From an uncultured Clostridia bacterium (GTDB taxonomy: Bacteria; Bacillota; Clostridia; Christensenellales; Borkfalkiaceae), in assembly GCA_947628675.1 (NCBI GenBank), contig CANRAR010000004.1, positions 81,790 to 145,789 of the forward strand: 64,000 bases of DNA, read 5' to 3'. Each line of letters starts with the position of its first letter. Within the stretch, counting starts at the first letter, position 1. A program made the translations under genes and the position numbers. Positions 40,873 through 63,907 of the stretch are shown here, piece by piece. Under the pieces are notes generated by a model. That model was given only the letters and a program-made list of their open reading frames with translations, was not told the DNA's origin and ran no database searches.

Positions 40873-41051
40873 AATTTACCTCGTTTTTTCCATTATAGCG
40901 CAACTTGGTGGAAAAGTAAAATCTTTTTGCCCCACTTGGGAGAAGGAGCACTCCGCTTTCCCGCCTGCCCCCTTTGAAGGGGGCGGGTGGCGCGGCATTG
41001 CCGCGTCAGGTGGGGGTTGTCCCCCAATTTCCAAAAATTTGCCCACATCGC

Positions 41052-41080
41052 TTGCAAATTATTTTCCCCCGTGGTAGAAT
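41052..41080 (+). promoter_or_regulatory. Promoter of RNA element copy 1
   Basis: TTGCAA-N17-TAGAAT. Confidence 0.75.
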
Positions 41081-41086
41081 GAACTT

Positions 41087-41222
41087 GCGACACAATAGAA
41101 TACTAACCATATAAAGATACAACGGCGTCGGTGTATCCTTATACCTTATATGGTTAGTTATTGTGTCGCAACAATTCGGGGATACTCGAAGCGGGCGCCT
41201 CGGATTGAGGCGCCCTTATTTT
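41087..41222 (+). ncRNA. Candidate structured leader RNA / attenuator, copy 1
   Basis: 11-bp + 13-bp + 6-bp hairpin 41087-41169, GGGATACTC segment, intrinsic-terminator-like hairpin gggcgcctc-ggatt-gaggcgccc-ttatttt. Confidence 0.7.
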
Positions 41223-41251
41223 ACCCGCAAAAATCAGAAAGGAGAAAAGCA

Positions 41252-42811
41252 ATGAAACGGATTTTGGCAGTCTTGCTTGCCTTTGTTACCGCGTTCTGCC
41301 TGTGCTTTGGGCTTGTGGCTTGCGGCGGCAAAGTCGGAAACAACAACAGCGCTGTTGACGGCGGTGGCGGCAACGGCGGCGGCGGTGCCGGCGGCGGTGG
41401 TGGTGGAGCCGGTGGAGGCGGCGGCGGTGCCGGAGGAGGCGGAGACAATAAGCAGAAGCCCGACTTCGTCATGCCCGAGGGCGGCTTCGATACGAGCAAG
41501 CCCGTCACCATTACCTTCTACCACACCATGAACCAAAATCTTCGCATGGTACTCGATTCCGCCATCGAGAAGTTCACCGAGATGTACCCCAACATCACGG
41601 TGAAGCACAAGCAGATCGGCGACTATGACGACGTACGCTATCAGATCATCACCGAGATCAAAGCGGGCAACCAGCCCAACATCGCGTACTGCTGGCTCGA
41701 CCACGTCGCGGACTTCAACACCTACAAGGCAGTCCAACCGCTCGACAATTTCCTCGCAGACGGCGCATACAGCGATTTGAAAGTCACGCAGGCGGACGGC
41801 ACGAAAGTCCCTCTCAACATGACGGCACAGGAGCAGGCAAATTTCATTGAGGCGTTCTTGGCTGAGGGCAAGCAATTCGGGGACGGCAGCACGATGTACA
41901 CGCTTCCCATCTGCAAGTCCACCGAAGTCCTCTATTACAATGTAGATTTCTTCCGTGATAACAACCTGACCGTTCCCACAACGTGGGACGAGATGGAAGA
42001 GGTCTGTGAGCAGATCAAAGAGATTGCCCCCGACGATTTTGCGTTCGGATACGATTCCGAGTCCAACTGGTTCATCACCATGTGCGAGCAGATGAAAGTT
42101 TCGACGGGCAAAGAGTACTACACCTCCTCCACGGGCACCAAGTATTTGTTCGATAACGAGAAGACCCGCGAATTCGTACAGCGTTTCAAGGGTTGGTACG
42201 ATAACGGCTACTTCACCACGAGAGCCCTTTATAGCAACAAGTACACCTCGACCCTCTTCACGGCGGCTTCGGGCGAAAAGTGCTATATGTGCATCGGCTC
42301 TTCTGCGGGTGCGAAAAACCAAGTGCCTACTGGGAATACGTTTGAAGTCGGCATCAAGCCCATTCCCCAACTCGATCCCGCACATCCCAAGGTAATTTCG
42401 CAGGGGCCTTCCGTCTGCATCTTCAAGAATGAGGATCCTCAGAAAGTCCTTGCAAGTTGGCTGCTCGTCAAGTATCTTACGACGAACATTCCGTTCCAGG
42501 CGCAGTTCGCTACGACCTCCGGCTATGTTCCCGTCTTAAAGCAGGATGTTATGCTCACCAACGCGACGTATGCCGACCTTCTCTCCAAAGCCGACGGCGG
42601 CGATCACATTGCCGCGCTTTCGCAGAAAGTTTGTATGGGGCAGACGGCGGCTTACTATACGTCTCCCGCGTTCCCCGGCTCCTCCAAGGCGCGCGAGCAG
42701 GTGGGGCTTCTGATGTGGGCAGTGTTCAGCAACAGCAAGTCGCTCGATACGGCGTTTGCGGATGCCATTGACGAGTGCAAATACGCGTATCCCTCGGAAC
42801 CGTCCGCATAA
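41252..42811 (+). CDS. Extracellular solute-binding lipoprotein (ABC sugar-type, family 1)
   Basis: MKRILAVLLAFVTAFCLCFGLVAC lipobox; Gly-rich linker; VTITFYHTMNQNLRMVLDSAIEKFTEMYPNITVKHKQIGDYDDVRYQI. Confidence 0.88.
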   Translation: MKRILAVLLAFVTAFCLCFGLVACGGKVGNNNSAVDGGGGNGGGGAGGGGGGAGGGGGGAGGGGDNKQKPDFVMPEGGFDTSKPVTITFYHTMNQNLRMVLDSAIEKFTEMYPNITVKHKQIGDYDDVRYQIITEIKAGNQPNIAYCWLDHVADFNTYKAVQPLDNFLADGAYSDLKVTQADGTKVPLNMTAQEQANFIEAFLAEGKQFGDGSTMYTLPICKSTEVLYYNVDFFRDNNLTVPTTWDEMEEVCEQIKEIAPDDFAFGYDSESNWFITMCEQMKVSTGKEYYTSSTGTKYLFDNEKTREFVQRFKGWYDNGYFTTRALYSNKYTSTLFTAASGEKCYMCIGSSAGAKNQVPTGNTFEVGIKPIPQLDPAHPKVISQGPSVCIFKNEDPQKVLASWLLVKYLTTNIPFQAQFATTSGYVPVLKQDVMLTNATYADLLSKADGGDHIAALSQKVCMGQTAAYYTSPAFPGSSKAREQVGLLMWAVFSNSKSLDTAFADAIDECKYAYPSEPSA

Positions 42812-42827
42812 AACTTTTCCGCACCCC

Positions 42828-42870
42828 TCTGCGCCCCGCGGCGTTCGCCGCGGGGCGTATTTTTATTTTC
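42828..42870 (+). terminator. Intrinsic terminator
   Basis: cgccccgcggcgttcgccgcggggcgtatttttatttt. Confidence 0.85.
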
Positions 42871-42912: not shown

Positions 42913-42941
42913 TTGCAAATTATTTCCCCTCGTGGTAGAAT
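42913..42941 (+). promoter_or_regulatory. Promoter of RNA element copy 2
   Basis: TTGCAA-N17-TAGAAT. Confidence 0.75.
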
Positions 42942-42947
42942 GAACTT

Positions 42948-43083
42948 GCGACACAATAGAATACTAACCATATAAAGATACAACGGCGTCGGTGTATCCT
43001 TATACCTTATATGGTTAGTTATTGTGTCGCAACAATTCGGGGATACTCGAAGCGGGCGCCTCGGATTGAGGCGTCCTTATTTT
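42948..43083 (+). ncRNA. Candidate structured leader RNA / attenuator, copy 2
   Basis: Near-identical to copy 1 across the whole element (offset 1861 bp). Confidence 0.7.
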
Positions 43084-43111
43084 GCCCGAAAAAACGAAAA
43101 GGAGAAAAAAC

Positions 43112-45790
43112 ATGAAACGCAAACTTTTGACGGTGCTGCTCGCGCTTGTCGCCGCACTCTGTCTCTGCCTCGGCCTCGCCGCTTGTGGAAGAAGCAACGA
43201 AGACGACGGGCATGAGCACGTCTACACCGTAGAAAACAAGTGCTCGATCTGCGGCAAGGAATGGGAGTATACCAAATCGGATGCGCTGGAATACACGAAG
43301 GTCGTGTTGGACGGCGTGGAGGGATACGACGTCCGCTTCGGAGTATTTCTTACGGTAAATGTCACATATGATTCGCAGGGATTTCCCACAAATATTGAGC
43401 AAATACCGATCGGCAAGGAACTCGAAGGCGAAGAAGTTGTGTTCCCCTACGGCTACAACGGTCTCCCCGTCATCAGCATCGGGCGGTTTTATCCCTGTAT
43501 GTCGGATACAGTCAAACATATTACCGTGCCCAAGTCCATTCTCTCGTTCGGGCAGAGCATAACCTATCAAAACGGTACGCGCGGCGCATTCCATTGCACG
43601 GCGTTGGAGAAACTCGATCTCCCCGACGGGCTTCCCGTACTTACGCGTCAAGAAATTTCGGCCGATAATGAAGCCACAGTCAATACGGCTTTCCCTCTGT
43701 GTTATAACACATTGTTCTACGATGGCGGAGTGGGCGGGGAATCCTGTCCGCTCTATGAGGATCCCCAATACCGCGAGAACGGCGCGCTGTACATCGGCAA
43801 CTATTTGTTTGAGGCAGACTTTGATGAGCCCGTCGAAAATTATACCGTTAAGGACGGGACAAAGGTCGTCATAAGTCTCCGCGGTGCAAAGCACGTCGTT
43901 TTGCCCGACAGCGTGGAGATAATCGCGCAAGGCGCGTTCAGGAATTCAAGCCTTGAAAGCATCGAGGTAGGAAGCGGCATTGAAGAAATCGGAGGTTATG
44001 TCTTTAATTGGTCTAACCTTACGAGCATCACCCTGCCCGATAAACCCATTTCTATCGGGCAGGGTGCGTTTATGCAAACGCCATTCTTTGAGAATAAAGA
44101 AAATTGGGAATATCTCGGCGAAAAAAGTGCCGATAATTATACTTCCAGTCTTCTTTGCATCGGAAACCACCTGATTTATTTCGCTTGTAGCGCATTCACT
44201 CCGTCTTTTGAAATGAAACCCAACCTGAAATCCATTGCCGGAGATGCGTTTGAATACAGCACCGTCGGTGAGCTGCACATCCCGGATATCGAAACTTGGT
44301 TCAATATCCGCCGCGGCGGAAGTAACGCAACGCCGCGCGCACAGAAATTGATCATCGACGGGCAGGAAACCGCCGCGATCACCATTCCTTCATCCGTGAC
44401 GGAGATCCCCGATTATGCCTTTGCGCGCATGGAATCTCTGACAAGTGTTACCCTGCACGACGGCGTGACCAAAATCGGGGACGGAGCGTTTTTATCCTGT
44501 GAAAATCTTACGGGTATCACGATCCCGAGCGGCGTGACAAAAATCGGAACAAACGCGTTCGGCAATTGCTATAAACTTGCAAGCATCAACGTTTCCGAGG
44601 CAAATCCCAATTACGCAAGCGAAAACGGAATTTTATACAACAAAGCAAAGAACCACATCGTAACGGTGCCGACGGGCTTAACAGGAGCAGTCGTTCTCCC
44701 CAACAGTCTGACTTCGATTGAATATTTTGCGTTTTATAATTGTTACGGCATAACGAGCATCGAGATCCCCGCCGGCGTAACTTCGATCAATGCATACTGG
44801 TTGAATGGTTGTACTGCACTTGCAAGCATCTCTGTTGGCGCAAACAACCCGAATTACAGCAGCCAAGACGGGATTCTATACAATAAGGATAAGACGAAAA
44901 TTGTATGTATTCCGCCTTCGGTTACGGGCGCGATAACCATTCCGGATAGTTTAACTTCGATCGATAGTGGGACGTTCGGTAATTGCACCAAGCTTACGAG
45001 CATCACCGTTGGCGCAAATAACCCGAATTATAGTAGTCAAGACGGGATCTTATACAACAAAGATAAGACGGAAATTGTCTGTGTCCCTCGTGCGATCACG
45101 GGCGCGGTGACCATTCCCGACAGCATTACTACGATTGACAGTTGGACGTTCAGTAATTGCACCAAGCTTACGAGCATCTCCGTTGGCGCAAACCACCCCA
45201 ATTACAGCAGCCAAGACGGGATTCTGTACAACAAAGATAAGACGGAAATCGTATATGTTCCTCTTGCGATCACGGGCACGGTAACGATCCCCGACACCGT
45301 GACCAGGATCGATTATGAGTTCAATAATTGTTATGGCATTACGAGCATAGAGATCCCCGCCAGCGTAACCTCGATCTACGGAACGTTTTCGGGTTGTAGC
45401 GCACTTACAGGCTTCACGGTGGACGCAAACAACCCCAATTATAGTAGCCAAGACGGTATTTTGTACAACAAAAATAAAACGGAAATTTTACGTGTTCCTC
45501 CTACGGTAACGGGCACAGTAACCATTCCCGACGGCGTGACCTCGATTAACTATGGGGCGTTCGAGAATTGCACCGGGATTACGAGCCTTATAATTCCGAA
45601 TAGCGTGACTTCCATTAATTATGCACCGTTTGAGGATAGCAAAAACCTTACGGATATTCAATTCAAAGGAACTGTAGAGGAGTGGCAAGCCATGGACAAG
45701 AACGTTTATTGGGATAACGGTCTCGGCGATTACACCATCACTTGCACGAATGGAAAAATCGCCAAAGACGGCACCGTAACAATGAACTGA
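43112..45790 (+). CDS. BspA-type leucine-rich-repeat surface lipoprotein
   Basis: MKRKLLTVLLALVAALCLCLGLAAC lipobox; repeated VTIPDSVTSIxxxAFxxCxxLTSI and NYSSQDGILYNKDKTEI units. Confidence 0.9.
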   Translation: MKRKLLTVLLALVAALCLCLGLAACGRSNEDDGHEHVYTVENKCSICGKEWEYTKSDALEYTKVVLDGVEGYDVRFGVFLTVNVTYDSQGFPTNIEQIPIGKELEGEEVVFPYGYNGLPVISIGRFYPCMSDTVKHITVPKSILSFGQSITYQNGTRGAFHCTALEKLDLPDGLPVLTRQEISADNEATVNTAFPLCYNTLFYDGGVGGESCPLYEDPQYRENGALYIGNYLFEADFDEPVENYTVKDGTKVVISLRGAKHVVLPDSVEIIAQGAFRNSSLESIEVGSGIEEIGGYVFNWSNLTSITLPDKPISIGQGAFMQTPFFENKENWEYLGEKSADNYTSSLLCIGNHLIYFACSAFTPSFEMKPNLKSIAGDAFEYSTVGELHIPDIETWFNIRRGGSNATPRAQKLIIDGQETAAITIPSSVTEIPDYAFARMESLTSVTLHDGVTKIGDGAFLSCENLTGITIPSGVTKIGTNAFGNCYKLASINVSEANPNYASENGILYNKAKNHIVTVPTGLTGAVVLPNSLTSIEYFAFYNCYGITSIEIPAGVTSINAYWLNGCTALASISVGANNPNYSSQDGILYNKDKTKIVCIPPSVTGAITIPDSLTSIDSGTFGNCTKLTSITVGANNPNYSSQDGILYNKDKTEIVCVPRAITGAVTIPDSITTIDSWTFSNCTKLTSISVGANHPNYSSQDGILYNKDKTEIVYVPLAITGTVTIPDTVTRIDYEFNNCYGITSIEIPASVTSIYGTFSGCSALTGFTVDANNPNYSSQDGILYNKNKTEILRVPPTVTGTVTIPDGVTSINYGAFENCTGITSLIIPNSVTSINYAPFEDSKNLTDIQFKGTVEEWQAMDKNVYWDNGLGDYTITCTNGKIAKDGTVTMN

Positions 45791-61895: not shown

Positions 61896-63443
61896 TTATT
61901 GCCGCGTCCAATTATAATTAGAATAGAGATCGCGCAAGTATTCCGCGGCAGTCGTTGCGTTTTGAAGAACGTCACGCAATAGTGCTGTTTCGCCCGCGCT
62001 CCACCCGTTCGGGTTCACAAACGTCACGCTGTTAAGATTATCGCACGACAAAAATGCCTGATACCCTATGGAAGCCACATTTTCCCCAATCGTCACGCTC
62101 GTCAGCATGGCGCACTCCCAAAACGCATTATGCCCAATCGAAGTCACGTCTTTACCAATTGTCACGCTTTCCAGCCCGCTACAAAAAGAGAACGCATTAT
62201 CCCCAATCGAAGTCACGCCGTCGGGAATTTTCAACGTCCCCGTCAACCCGCTACACCCCTCAAACGCCGCATACCCAATCGAGGTCACGCCACTCCCGAT
62301 CGTCACGCTCGTCAGCCCGCTGCACCCCCCGAACGCATTATTTTTGATTTCTTTGATCTCCGCAGGGATCGTAAGATCTTTTACTTCCACGCCATCCAAA
62401 TAGAGATGGTGCGCGCAGTAAAGCGGATTGGCGGTGATCTCCTCGACTCCAAAATCAATTTTACACCACGCCGCAAGGTCGGTAATATATACTCCCGTCA
62501 GCCCACTGCAACCACTGAACGCCCTATCCCCAATCGAGGTCACGCCACTCCCGATCGTCACACTTTCAAGCCCACTGCAACCATAAAACGCCTCCTTTCC
62601 AATCGAGGTCACACCGCTTCCAATCGTCACGCTCGTCAGGCCACCGCAATAATTGAACGCACTCTCTCCTATCTCGGTCACGCTCTCGGGAATTTTCAAT
62701 TCTCCCGTCAACCCGCTACACCACCAGAACGCCTCCTTCCCAATCGAAGTTACGCTGTCGGGAATTTCAATGCTCGTCAGACCACCGCACCTGTTGAAAG
62801 CACTATCCCCAATCGAGGTCACGCTGTCGGGAATATTAATGCTCGTCAGCTCGATGCAACCATTAAACGCATAGTTTCCGATCGAGGTCACGCTATCGGG
62901 AATGGAAATGCTCGTCAAATCACTGTGGTCGTAAAATGCACGATCGGCGATCGCCGTAACGGGAATACCGCGGTAAGTCGCGGGAATGACGATATCGAGG
63001 TCATAGGCGATTCCGATGCCCACAACTTCCAACGTCTCTTCGCCCGTCGGGCTTCGCCGCATACGGTATGCAAGCCCCTCCGTTCCCTCCGCTTGCGCAG
63101 GCGCGCCCGATACCTCTCCTGCATCAAGCACGTTGCCGTCCGTGAGCGTCAAGTACAGATGTCCGTCTTCACCGACTTCTGCCGACTGGATCCCGACGCC
63201 GTTTCGTCCGTCTTTCCCGTCTGCGCCGTCCTTGCCGTCTGCTCCCTTGAAAAGCGCGACGAGGTCATCAAACGAGCCCTCAAATCCGAGCGCCTTTGCC
63301 TCGGCGTAGAGCCGTTCCGCCGTCCAAAGGTCATCTCCGCCCGAAGGCTCCTGCGGGGTCTTTTCTCCGCACGCCGCGAGGCCGAAGCAGAGGCACAGAG
63401 CCGCGACGATTGCCAAAAGTACGGTTAAAAACTTCTTTTTCAT
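61896..63443 (-). CDS. BspA-type leucine-rich-repeat surface lipoprotein
   Basis: MKKKFLTVLLAIVAALCLCFGLAAC lipobox; collagen-like GADGKDGADGKDGRNG; many SIPDSVTSIGxxAFxxCxGLTS repeats. Confidence 0.92.
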   Translation of the reverse strand: MKKKFLTVLLAIVAALCLCFGLAACGEKTPQEPSGGDDLWTAERLYAEAKALGFEGSFDDLVALFKGADGKDGADGKDGRNGVGIQSAEVGEDGHLYLTLTDGNVLDAGEVSGAPAQAEGTEGLAYRMRRSPTGEETLEVVGIGIAYDLDIVIPATYRGIPVTAIADRAFYDHSDLTSISIPDSVTSIGNYAFNGCIELTSINIPDSVTSIGDSAFNRCGGLTSIEIPDSVTSIGKEAFWWCSGLTGELKIPESVTEIGESAFNYCGGLTSVTIGSGVTSIGKEAFYGCSGLESVTIGSGVTSIGDRAFSGCSGLTGVYITDLAAWCKIDFGVEEITANPLYCAHHLYLDGVEVKDLTIPAEIKEIKNNAFGGCSGLTSVTIGSGVTSIGYAAFEGCSGLTGTLKIPDGVTSIGDNAFSFCSGLESVTIGKDVTSIGHNAFWECAMLTSVTIGENVASIGYQAFLSCDNLNSVTFVNPNGWSAGETALLRDVLQNATTAAEYLRDLYSNYNWTRQ

Positions 63444-63529: not shown

Positions 63530-63672
63530 AAAAATAAGGACGCCCGACAATATCGGGCGCCCGCATAGAGTATCCCGAGATTGTTGCGGTACAATTTCCT
63601 CCATAAACGGAAAATAGGATACACCAAATGCCAGTGTAGCCGTTTATGGAGCAAAATATGAAATTGTACCGC
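63530..63672 (-). ncRNA. Candidate structured leader RNA / attenuator, copy 3 (diverged)
   Basis: Hairpin 63586-63672 GCGGTACAATTT...AAATTGTACCGC, CTCGGGATACTC segment, terminator-like GGGCGCCCGA-TATTG-TCGGGCGTCC-TTATTTTT. Confidence 0.68.
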
Positions 63673-63678
63673 ACTGTC

Positions 63679-63707
63679 AGTATATCACGCCCGAAAAAAT
63701 TTTGCAA
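63679..63707 (-). promoter_or_regulatory. Promoter of RNA element copy 3
   Basis: TTGCAA-N17-TATACT on minus strand. Confidence 0.75.
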
Positions 63708-63907
63708 GATTTTATGTAAATTTTATCCGCGCGGGAAAATGCCGCGCCTTTTTTCATTTCCCTGCCGCGCGCCCGCTGCGCTTTGCGCAGCGGGCGCGCG
63801 GCATGGGAATGTTATTCCTTATAATTTCTTTTTTTCTGCACCGTGCACGAATTTCTTCCCGTAAAATCGCTTGACGGGGGCGAGGGTTTGTAGTAACATA
63901 GAACGCA

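Follow-up and report, generated by a model that had tools for sequence, protein, structure and literature searches.

In the window, by which we mean the whole 64-kb stretch of DNA analysed, a covariance-model scan finds exactly three copies of a promoter, leader and terminator unit, at 41052-41222 (+), 42913-43083 (+) and 63530-63707 (-). Each lies on the coding strand of its gene and precedes a lipoprotein gene. Weaker antisense matches are also seen in the window, because the long hairpin of the leader is nearly palindromic. The features of the three units are as follows.

41052-41080, plus strand: copy 1 promoter, TTGCAA (41052-41057), N17, TAGAAT (41075-41080), with TG before TAGAAT
41087, plus strand: copy 1 predicted +1, a G that lies 6 nt past the -10 and is the first base of P1
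41087-41097, plus strand: copy 1 P1 5' strand, GCGACACAATA, from covariation
41098-41101, plus strand: copy 1 conserved GAAU bulge between P1 and P2 (family consensus NAAUA)
41102-41114, plus strand: copy 1 P2 5' strand, from the native-versus-swapped pairing test
41116-41121, plus strand: copy 1 strand a', the P3 5' strand GATACA, from the same test
41124-41138, plus strand: copy 1 strand a, P3 loop and 3' strand, GGCGTCGGTGTATCC, partner of a' or b
41132-41137, plus strand: copy 1 P3 3' strand, partner of 41116-41121
41146-41158, plus strand: copy 1 P2 3' strand, from the same test
41159-41169, plus strand: copy 1 P1 3' strand, TATTGTGTCGC, from covariation
41172-41192, plus strand: copy 1 strand b, CAATTCGGGGATACTCGAAGC, predicted partner of a (termination) or c (antitermination)
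41193-41207, plus strand: copy 1 strand c, terminator 5' arm and loop, also the antiterminator 3' half
41193-41222, plus strand: copy 1 intrinsic terminator, GGGCGCC..GGCGCCC (hairpin 41193-41215), then the T-rich tail TTATTTT
41252-42811, plus strand: lipoprotein after copy 1, ATG at 41252, extracellular solute-binding protein (SBP_bac_8, E 3.7e-29)
42913-42941, plus strand: copy 2 promoter, TTGCAA-N17-TAGAAT
42948-43083, plus strand: copy 2 element, same architecture as copy 1, terminator to 43083
42948-42958/43020-43030 and 42963-42975/43007-43019, plus strand: copy 2 P1 and P2
42985-42999, 43033-43053 and 43054-43068, plus strand: copy 2 strands a, b and c
43112-45790, plus strand: lipoprotein after copy 2, BspA-type leucine-rich repeats
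63679-63707, minus strand: copy 3 promoter, TTGCAA (63702-63707), N17, TATACT (63679-63684), +1 at 63672
63530-63672, minus strand: copy 3 element, same architecture as copies 1 and 2
63660-63672/63586-63598, 63640-63651/63599-63610 and 63620-63638, minus strand: copy 3 P1, P2 and P3
63617-63632, 63563-63583 and 63548-63562, minus strand: copy 3 strands a, b and c
63538-63562, minus strand: copy 3 terminator, followed by a T tail
61899-63443, minus strand: lipoprotein after copy 3

The preliminary description of this DNA had placed a promoter six nucleotides before a G at 41087 that opens a long hairpin, three stems, a terminator-like hairpin before the start codon and repeat copies at 42948 and at 63672 on the minus strand. 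The promoter was recovered exactly as given, all three stems are present as P1, P2 and P3, and the terminator and the architecture of the repeat copies agree. Copies 1 and 2 are nearly identical (94% identity). For the copy 1 leader (41087-41225) the folding energy is -64.4 kcal/mol (z -8.8), compared to -31.6 +/- 3.7 for its shuffles, none of which equals it; for copy 3 it is -62.4 kcal/mol (z -8.3), again with no shuffle as good. G+C-rich palindromic repeats, which may be dispersed repeats or terminators belonging to the preceding unit, lie directly upstream of all three promoters (40970-41020, 42830-42860 and 63765-63805).

The same description spoke of a three-copy element, which holds for the window, while the whole genome carries 13 sense copies with one downstream gene each. 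These were found with a covariance model built from eight own-genome copies (R1) and then with a broader one built from 70 diverse copies (R2); three of the 13 are weaker and were confirmed by eye. By covariance model, for which the E-values are rough, the element occurs in 220 of 398 genomes and 12 of 18 genera of the family, in 116 of 396 genomes and 39 of 142 genera of the order, and in 82 of 391 genomes and 49 of 222 genera of the class. In the richest genomes the number of matches reaches 18. When 300 genomes were drawn from across the phylum, none of the 299 besides the window's own genome matched, which shows that the model is specific. A phage or plasmid origin was considered and set aside: one class-level element (L267 type) matched nothing in phages or plasmids, and a search of viral contigs with two exact patterns was likewise negative, though diverged copies may still occur in any of these.

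Across these copies the order of parts is invariant, namely promoter, P1, NAAUA bulge, P2, P3, U-rich return, P1', AACA, b, c-d terminator, SD and ORF. P1 has 11 bp, including near-invariant A-U pairs (94% and 97%), and P2 has about 14 bp of free sequence; in the bulge the A is conserved at 95% and the U at 87%. The length of P2 does not correlate with that of the linker, for which our measure is noisy. In order to evaluate each pairing, we compared the duplex energy of a strand with its own partner to that with partners from other copies, using 100 diverse copies and 5000 permutations. The native-versus-swapped z was -29 for P1, -40 for P2, -17 for P3 (a'-a), -18 for a-b, -21 for b-c (the antiterminator) and -17 for c-d (the terminator), and none of the 5000 permutations reached the native value for any of the six helices. 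These z-scores are inflated by relatedness; eight control pairings drawn from the same sequences, including a'-b, a-c, P2-b and P1'-b, were null (|z| 1.4 or less). In a structure-fitted alignment, 96.6% of cells are paired and both sides have changed in 23 of 24 pairs. The covariation score is 0.589, compared to 0.220 after shuffling, with a similar result from a second count, and P1, P3 and the terminator together have 416 double-change cells versus 103 in the shuffled control. The terminator pairs are 99% formed in the 100 copies. All six predicted helices, P1, P2, P3, a-b, b-c and c-d, are therefore supported by covariation or by the pairing test. A further hairpin, in which ATTGT of the P1 3' strand would pair with ACAAT of b, is apparent in the window's genus and null family-wide (p13-b z -0.2), and was rejected.

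The many copies per genome, the 94% likeness of copies 1 and 2 and the fact that P1 is an inverted repeat would also suit a dispersed DNA repeat or an inverted-repeat operator without RNA function. However, P1, P3 and the terminator carry compensatory changes that include G-U pairs, P2 is paired although its sequence is unrelated between copies, and promoter and strand orientation are fixed. A DNA-level explanation is already contradicted by these observations, and we give it next to no weight.

The promoter is tied to the RNA fold. Of 263 copies, 244 have a -10-like box 3-10 nt upstream of P1, compared to 22.7 expected from sequence further downstream, and in 210 of the 263 the gap between the -10 and P1 is exactly 6 nt. 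The TG extension is found in 228 of the 263, and 235 have TTG where a -35 would lie. This fixed distance puts the first base of P1 at the predicted +1. The aptamers of riboswitches usually lie at varying distances from the transcription start; here promoter and leader behave as one module, and such an exact coupling of a promoter to an RNA fold is unusual and can be tested directly. At eight loci (L095, L067, L203, L209, L199, L309, L323 and L283) two elements stand in tandem before one gene; at L095, the one tandem read closely, the second carries a promoter of its own.

The stems and terminator of the earlier structure account hold, but two pairings of strand b were overlooked in it, the b-c antiterminator and the long-range a-b helix. 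In the 100 copies, a-b has a mean of 14.7 pairs and b-c a mean of 13.0, with 8.6 nucleotides of b shared between them, and the two overlap in 100 of 100 sequences. Since nucleotides of b are shared in all copies, a-b and b-c are mutually exclusive. In copy 1, GGCGTCGGTGTATCC pairs with GGATACTCGAAGC (-13.0) to form a-b, CAATTCGGGG pairs with CCTCGGATTG over 10 bp to form b-c (duplex -14.9), and the terminator reaches -19.7. Distant genera keep the pairings with other letters (AAAAATGTATTCTCTC with GAGAGATACGTTTTT). When the nascent leader is folded to the end of c, the b-c antiterminator forms in all three window copies; when the complete leader is folded, the terminator forms in all three.

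An attenuator has an intrinsic terminator between promoter and gene, and a conserved antiterminator exclusive with that terminator. The leader contains both, the second as judged from the b-c z of -21 and the nascent folds. As far as sequence comparison can establish them, the predicted helices and their mutual exclusion, the terminator, the coupling to the promoter and the arrangement in cis to the genes are demonstrated, and we consider it probable (roughly 0.8) that the element is a cis-acting, four-strand transcription attenuator. Transcription would begin at the first base of P1; P1, P2 and P3 would fold first, and strand b would emerge next. If b pairs with c, the 5' arm of the terminator, the antiterminator would form and the gene would be transcribed. 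If b pairs instead with a, the P3 loop and 3' strand, c would be left free for d, and the terminator would stop transcription. We infer this direction, and the choice would be made by a factor that recognises the conserved core, consisting of the near-invariant A-U pairs of P1, the NAAUA bulge and the P3 region.

A difficulty for this model is the a-b helix, a pseudoknot that crosses P1 and P2 and could hardly span the longest P2 variants. Some copies have GCCCGC, GCCCTGC or CCGAAA 3' of the T tract, complementary to GCGGGC, GCAGGGC or TTTCGG at the b/c junction. This stretch lies at 41216-41230, at 43077-43088 and at many related loci (e.g. L075, L096 and L098); it has a native-versus-swapped z of -6.3 with the junction and could bracket the terminator.

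At 107 of 126 loci an SD-led ORF on the same strand begins no more than 200 nt from the element, at a median of 26 nt. This spacing speaks against the view that each copy is mostly a separate small RNA of about 135 nt that ends at the terminator, with downstream expression as incidental readthrough. A small RNA would agree with the strong, fixed promoter and terminator and with the interchangeability of a and b among own-genome copies. However, it would not need the conserved, copy-specific b-c pairing (-16.6 for native partners versus -12.0 with same-genome copies), and a-b carries no genome-specific code across 16 genomes. We regard the small-RNA explanation as quite improbable; an sRNA released from the leader, as the preliminary description had also suggested, may nevertheless exist. 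A genome-specific trans code was also examined and rejected: in the window's own genome swapped partners seemed as good as native ones, yet over the 16 genomes a-b swaps within a genome gave -12.6, compared to -13.0 with other genomes of the genus.

The logic of an aptamer-like domain followed by an antiterminator and a terminator is shared with known classes, and the element could be a diverged member of one of them, such as a T-box, c-di-GMP-II or other riboswitch, or a ribosome-mediated leader-peptide attenuator. Four-strand attenuators such as the trp leader have a chain of exclusive pairings a'-a, a-b, b-c and c-d. The element has the same chain; in contrast to the trp leader, it has no leader peptide, and its strand a is carried by a large preserved P1-P2 stem. 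Leader ORFs with a ribosome-binding site are in fact rarer than expected (29 of 263 leaders versus 42 in shuffles). Terminator-type pseudoknot riboswitches (e.g. c-di-GMP-II) have a conserved core, an apical loop paired long-range with the 3' linker, an exclusive terminator and antiterminator, heterogeneous surface-protein targets and tandem units. The element shares the core, the loop-linker pairing, the exclusive pair, the surface targets and the tandems, but has no Rfam match, and its P1 stands at the predicted start at a fixed promoter distance. T-box leaders (RF00230) are likewise promoter-proximal, set an antiterminator against a terminator and occur in many copies per genome in Bacillota, with tandem copies; the element differs in its targets, which are not amino-acid genes, and in the absence of the T-box core UGGNACCGCG from all 263 leaders and of a match to the T-box covariance model at the gathering score. 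Membership of a known class is thus very unlikely in our judgment.

Against Rfam 15, the window and 20 loci gave no match at the gathering score, and relaxed E-values returned sub-threshold matches of the chance type only. The preliminary description had proposed an undescribed leader RNA or attenuator family, with Rfam and homologues showing covariation among its checks. Its proposal is supported by the absence from Rfam 15 and by hundreds of homologues in Clostridia genomes with strong covariation. Literature searches by sequence fragments and key phrases did not find the family described in searchable papers. A comparative human-microbiome survey lists 3161 candidate structured RNAs (PMC8040213); its main text, to which our comparison was confined, describes no motif that matches the element, and a fragment of the family may already be among the 3161. 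As far as tested, the family and its rigid promoter coupling are new, while attenuation as a mechanism is already known.

The downstream genes are heterogeneous. In a diverse set of 123 downstream proteins, BspA-type leucine-rich repeats are present in 26 and Listeria-Bacteroides repeats in 10; the rest include zinc ribbons, SHOCT proteins and many single matches, for a total of 76 Pfam families. Small membrane proteins and LytTR-like regulators are also among the targets. In the window's own genome, 10 of the 13 targets are lipoproteins and three are zinc-ribbon or membrane proteins. A simple regular expression, which makes the counts approximate, called a lipoprotein signal in 55 of the 69 proteins from the window's genus, in 56 of 96 from other genera of its family, in 11 of 33 from other families of the order and in 1 of 23 from other orders of the class. 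The position upstream of lipoproteins first noted for this element therefore applies to all three window copies and mainly to the window's family, but not to the class at large; the lipoprotein link belongs to the lineage and not to the RNA. Small uncharacterised proteins follow the element in several genera (L107, L114 and L224), and downstream of class-level copies (L265, L266, L275 and L282) is a family of uncharacterised proteins that are 50-70 residues long and begin alike (e.g. MADYKRLYFHLFAKVADVIEE). Two of the diverse downstream set match the Rho N-terminal domain (Rho_N) and are possibly nucleic-acid binding.

As to what would trigger the attenuator, our first choice, at slightly less than even odds, is a small ligand that stabilises the a-b pseudoknot, which would make the element an OFF switch. 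We prefer a ligand because the core looks like an aptamer, with no protein or leader peptide implied. We tentatively propose that the element may be a new Clostridia-specific riboswitch class whose aptamer begins at the transcription start, with promoter and sensor as one module, controlling envelope proteins and many uncharacterised accessory genes; its ligand would probably be of a signalling type. The mixture of lipoproteins, zinc ribbons, small membrane proteins and LytTR-like regulators among the targets suggests no ligand. Alternatively, a protein may bind the core of P1 and the NAAUA bulge and pick a-b or b-c, that is, protein-dependent antitermination. P1 and the bulge hold the most conserved nucleotides that do not switch, the fixed promoter distance would suit a factor that joins RNA polymerase as transcription initiates, and the many matches per genome precede unrelated targets; however, conserved bulges are equally typical of aptamers, and we consider a protein rather unlikely. 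The remaining weight goes to other triggers or to no trigger.

The attenuator family would add to the known regulatory RNAs a large one that is absent from Rfam and present in roughly a fifth of sampled Clostridia genomes. In gut bacteria that are mostly uncultured, it would unite many uncharacterised genes and surface lipoproteins in one regulon, and its trigger, once found, could reveal an unrecognised signal.
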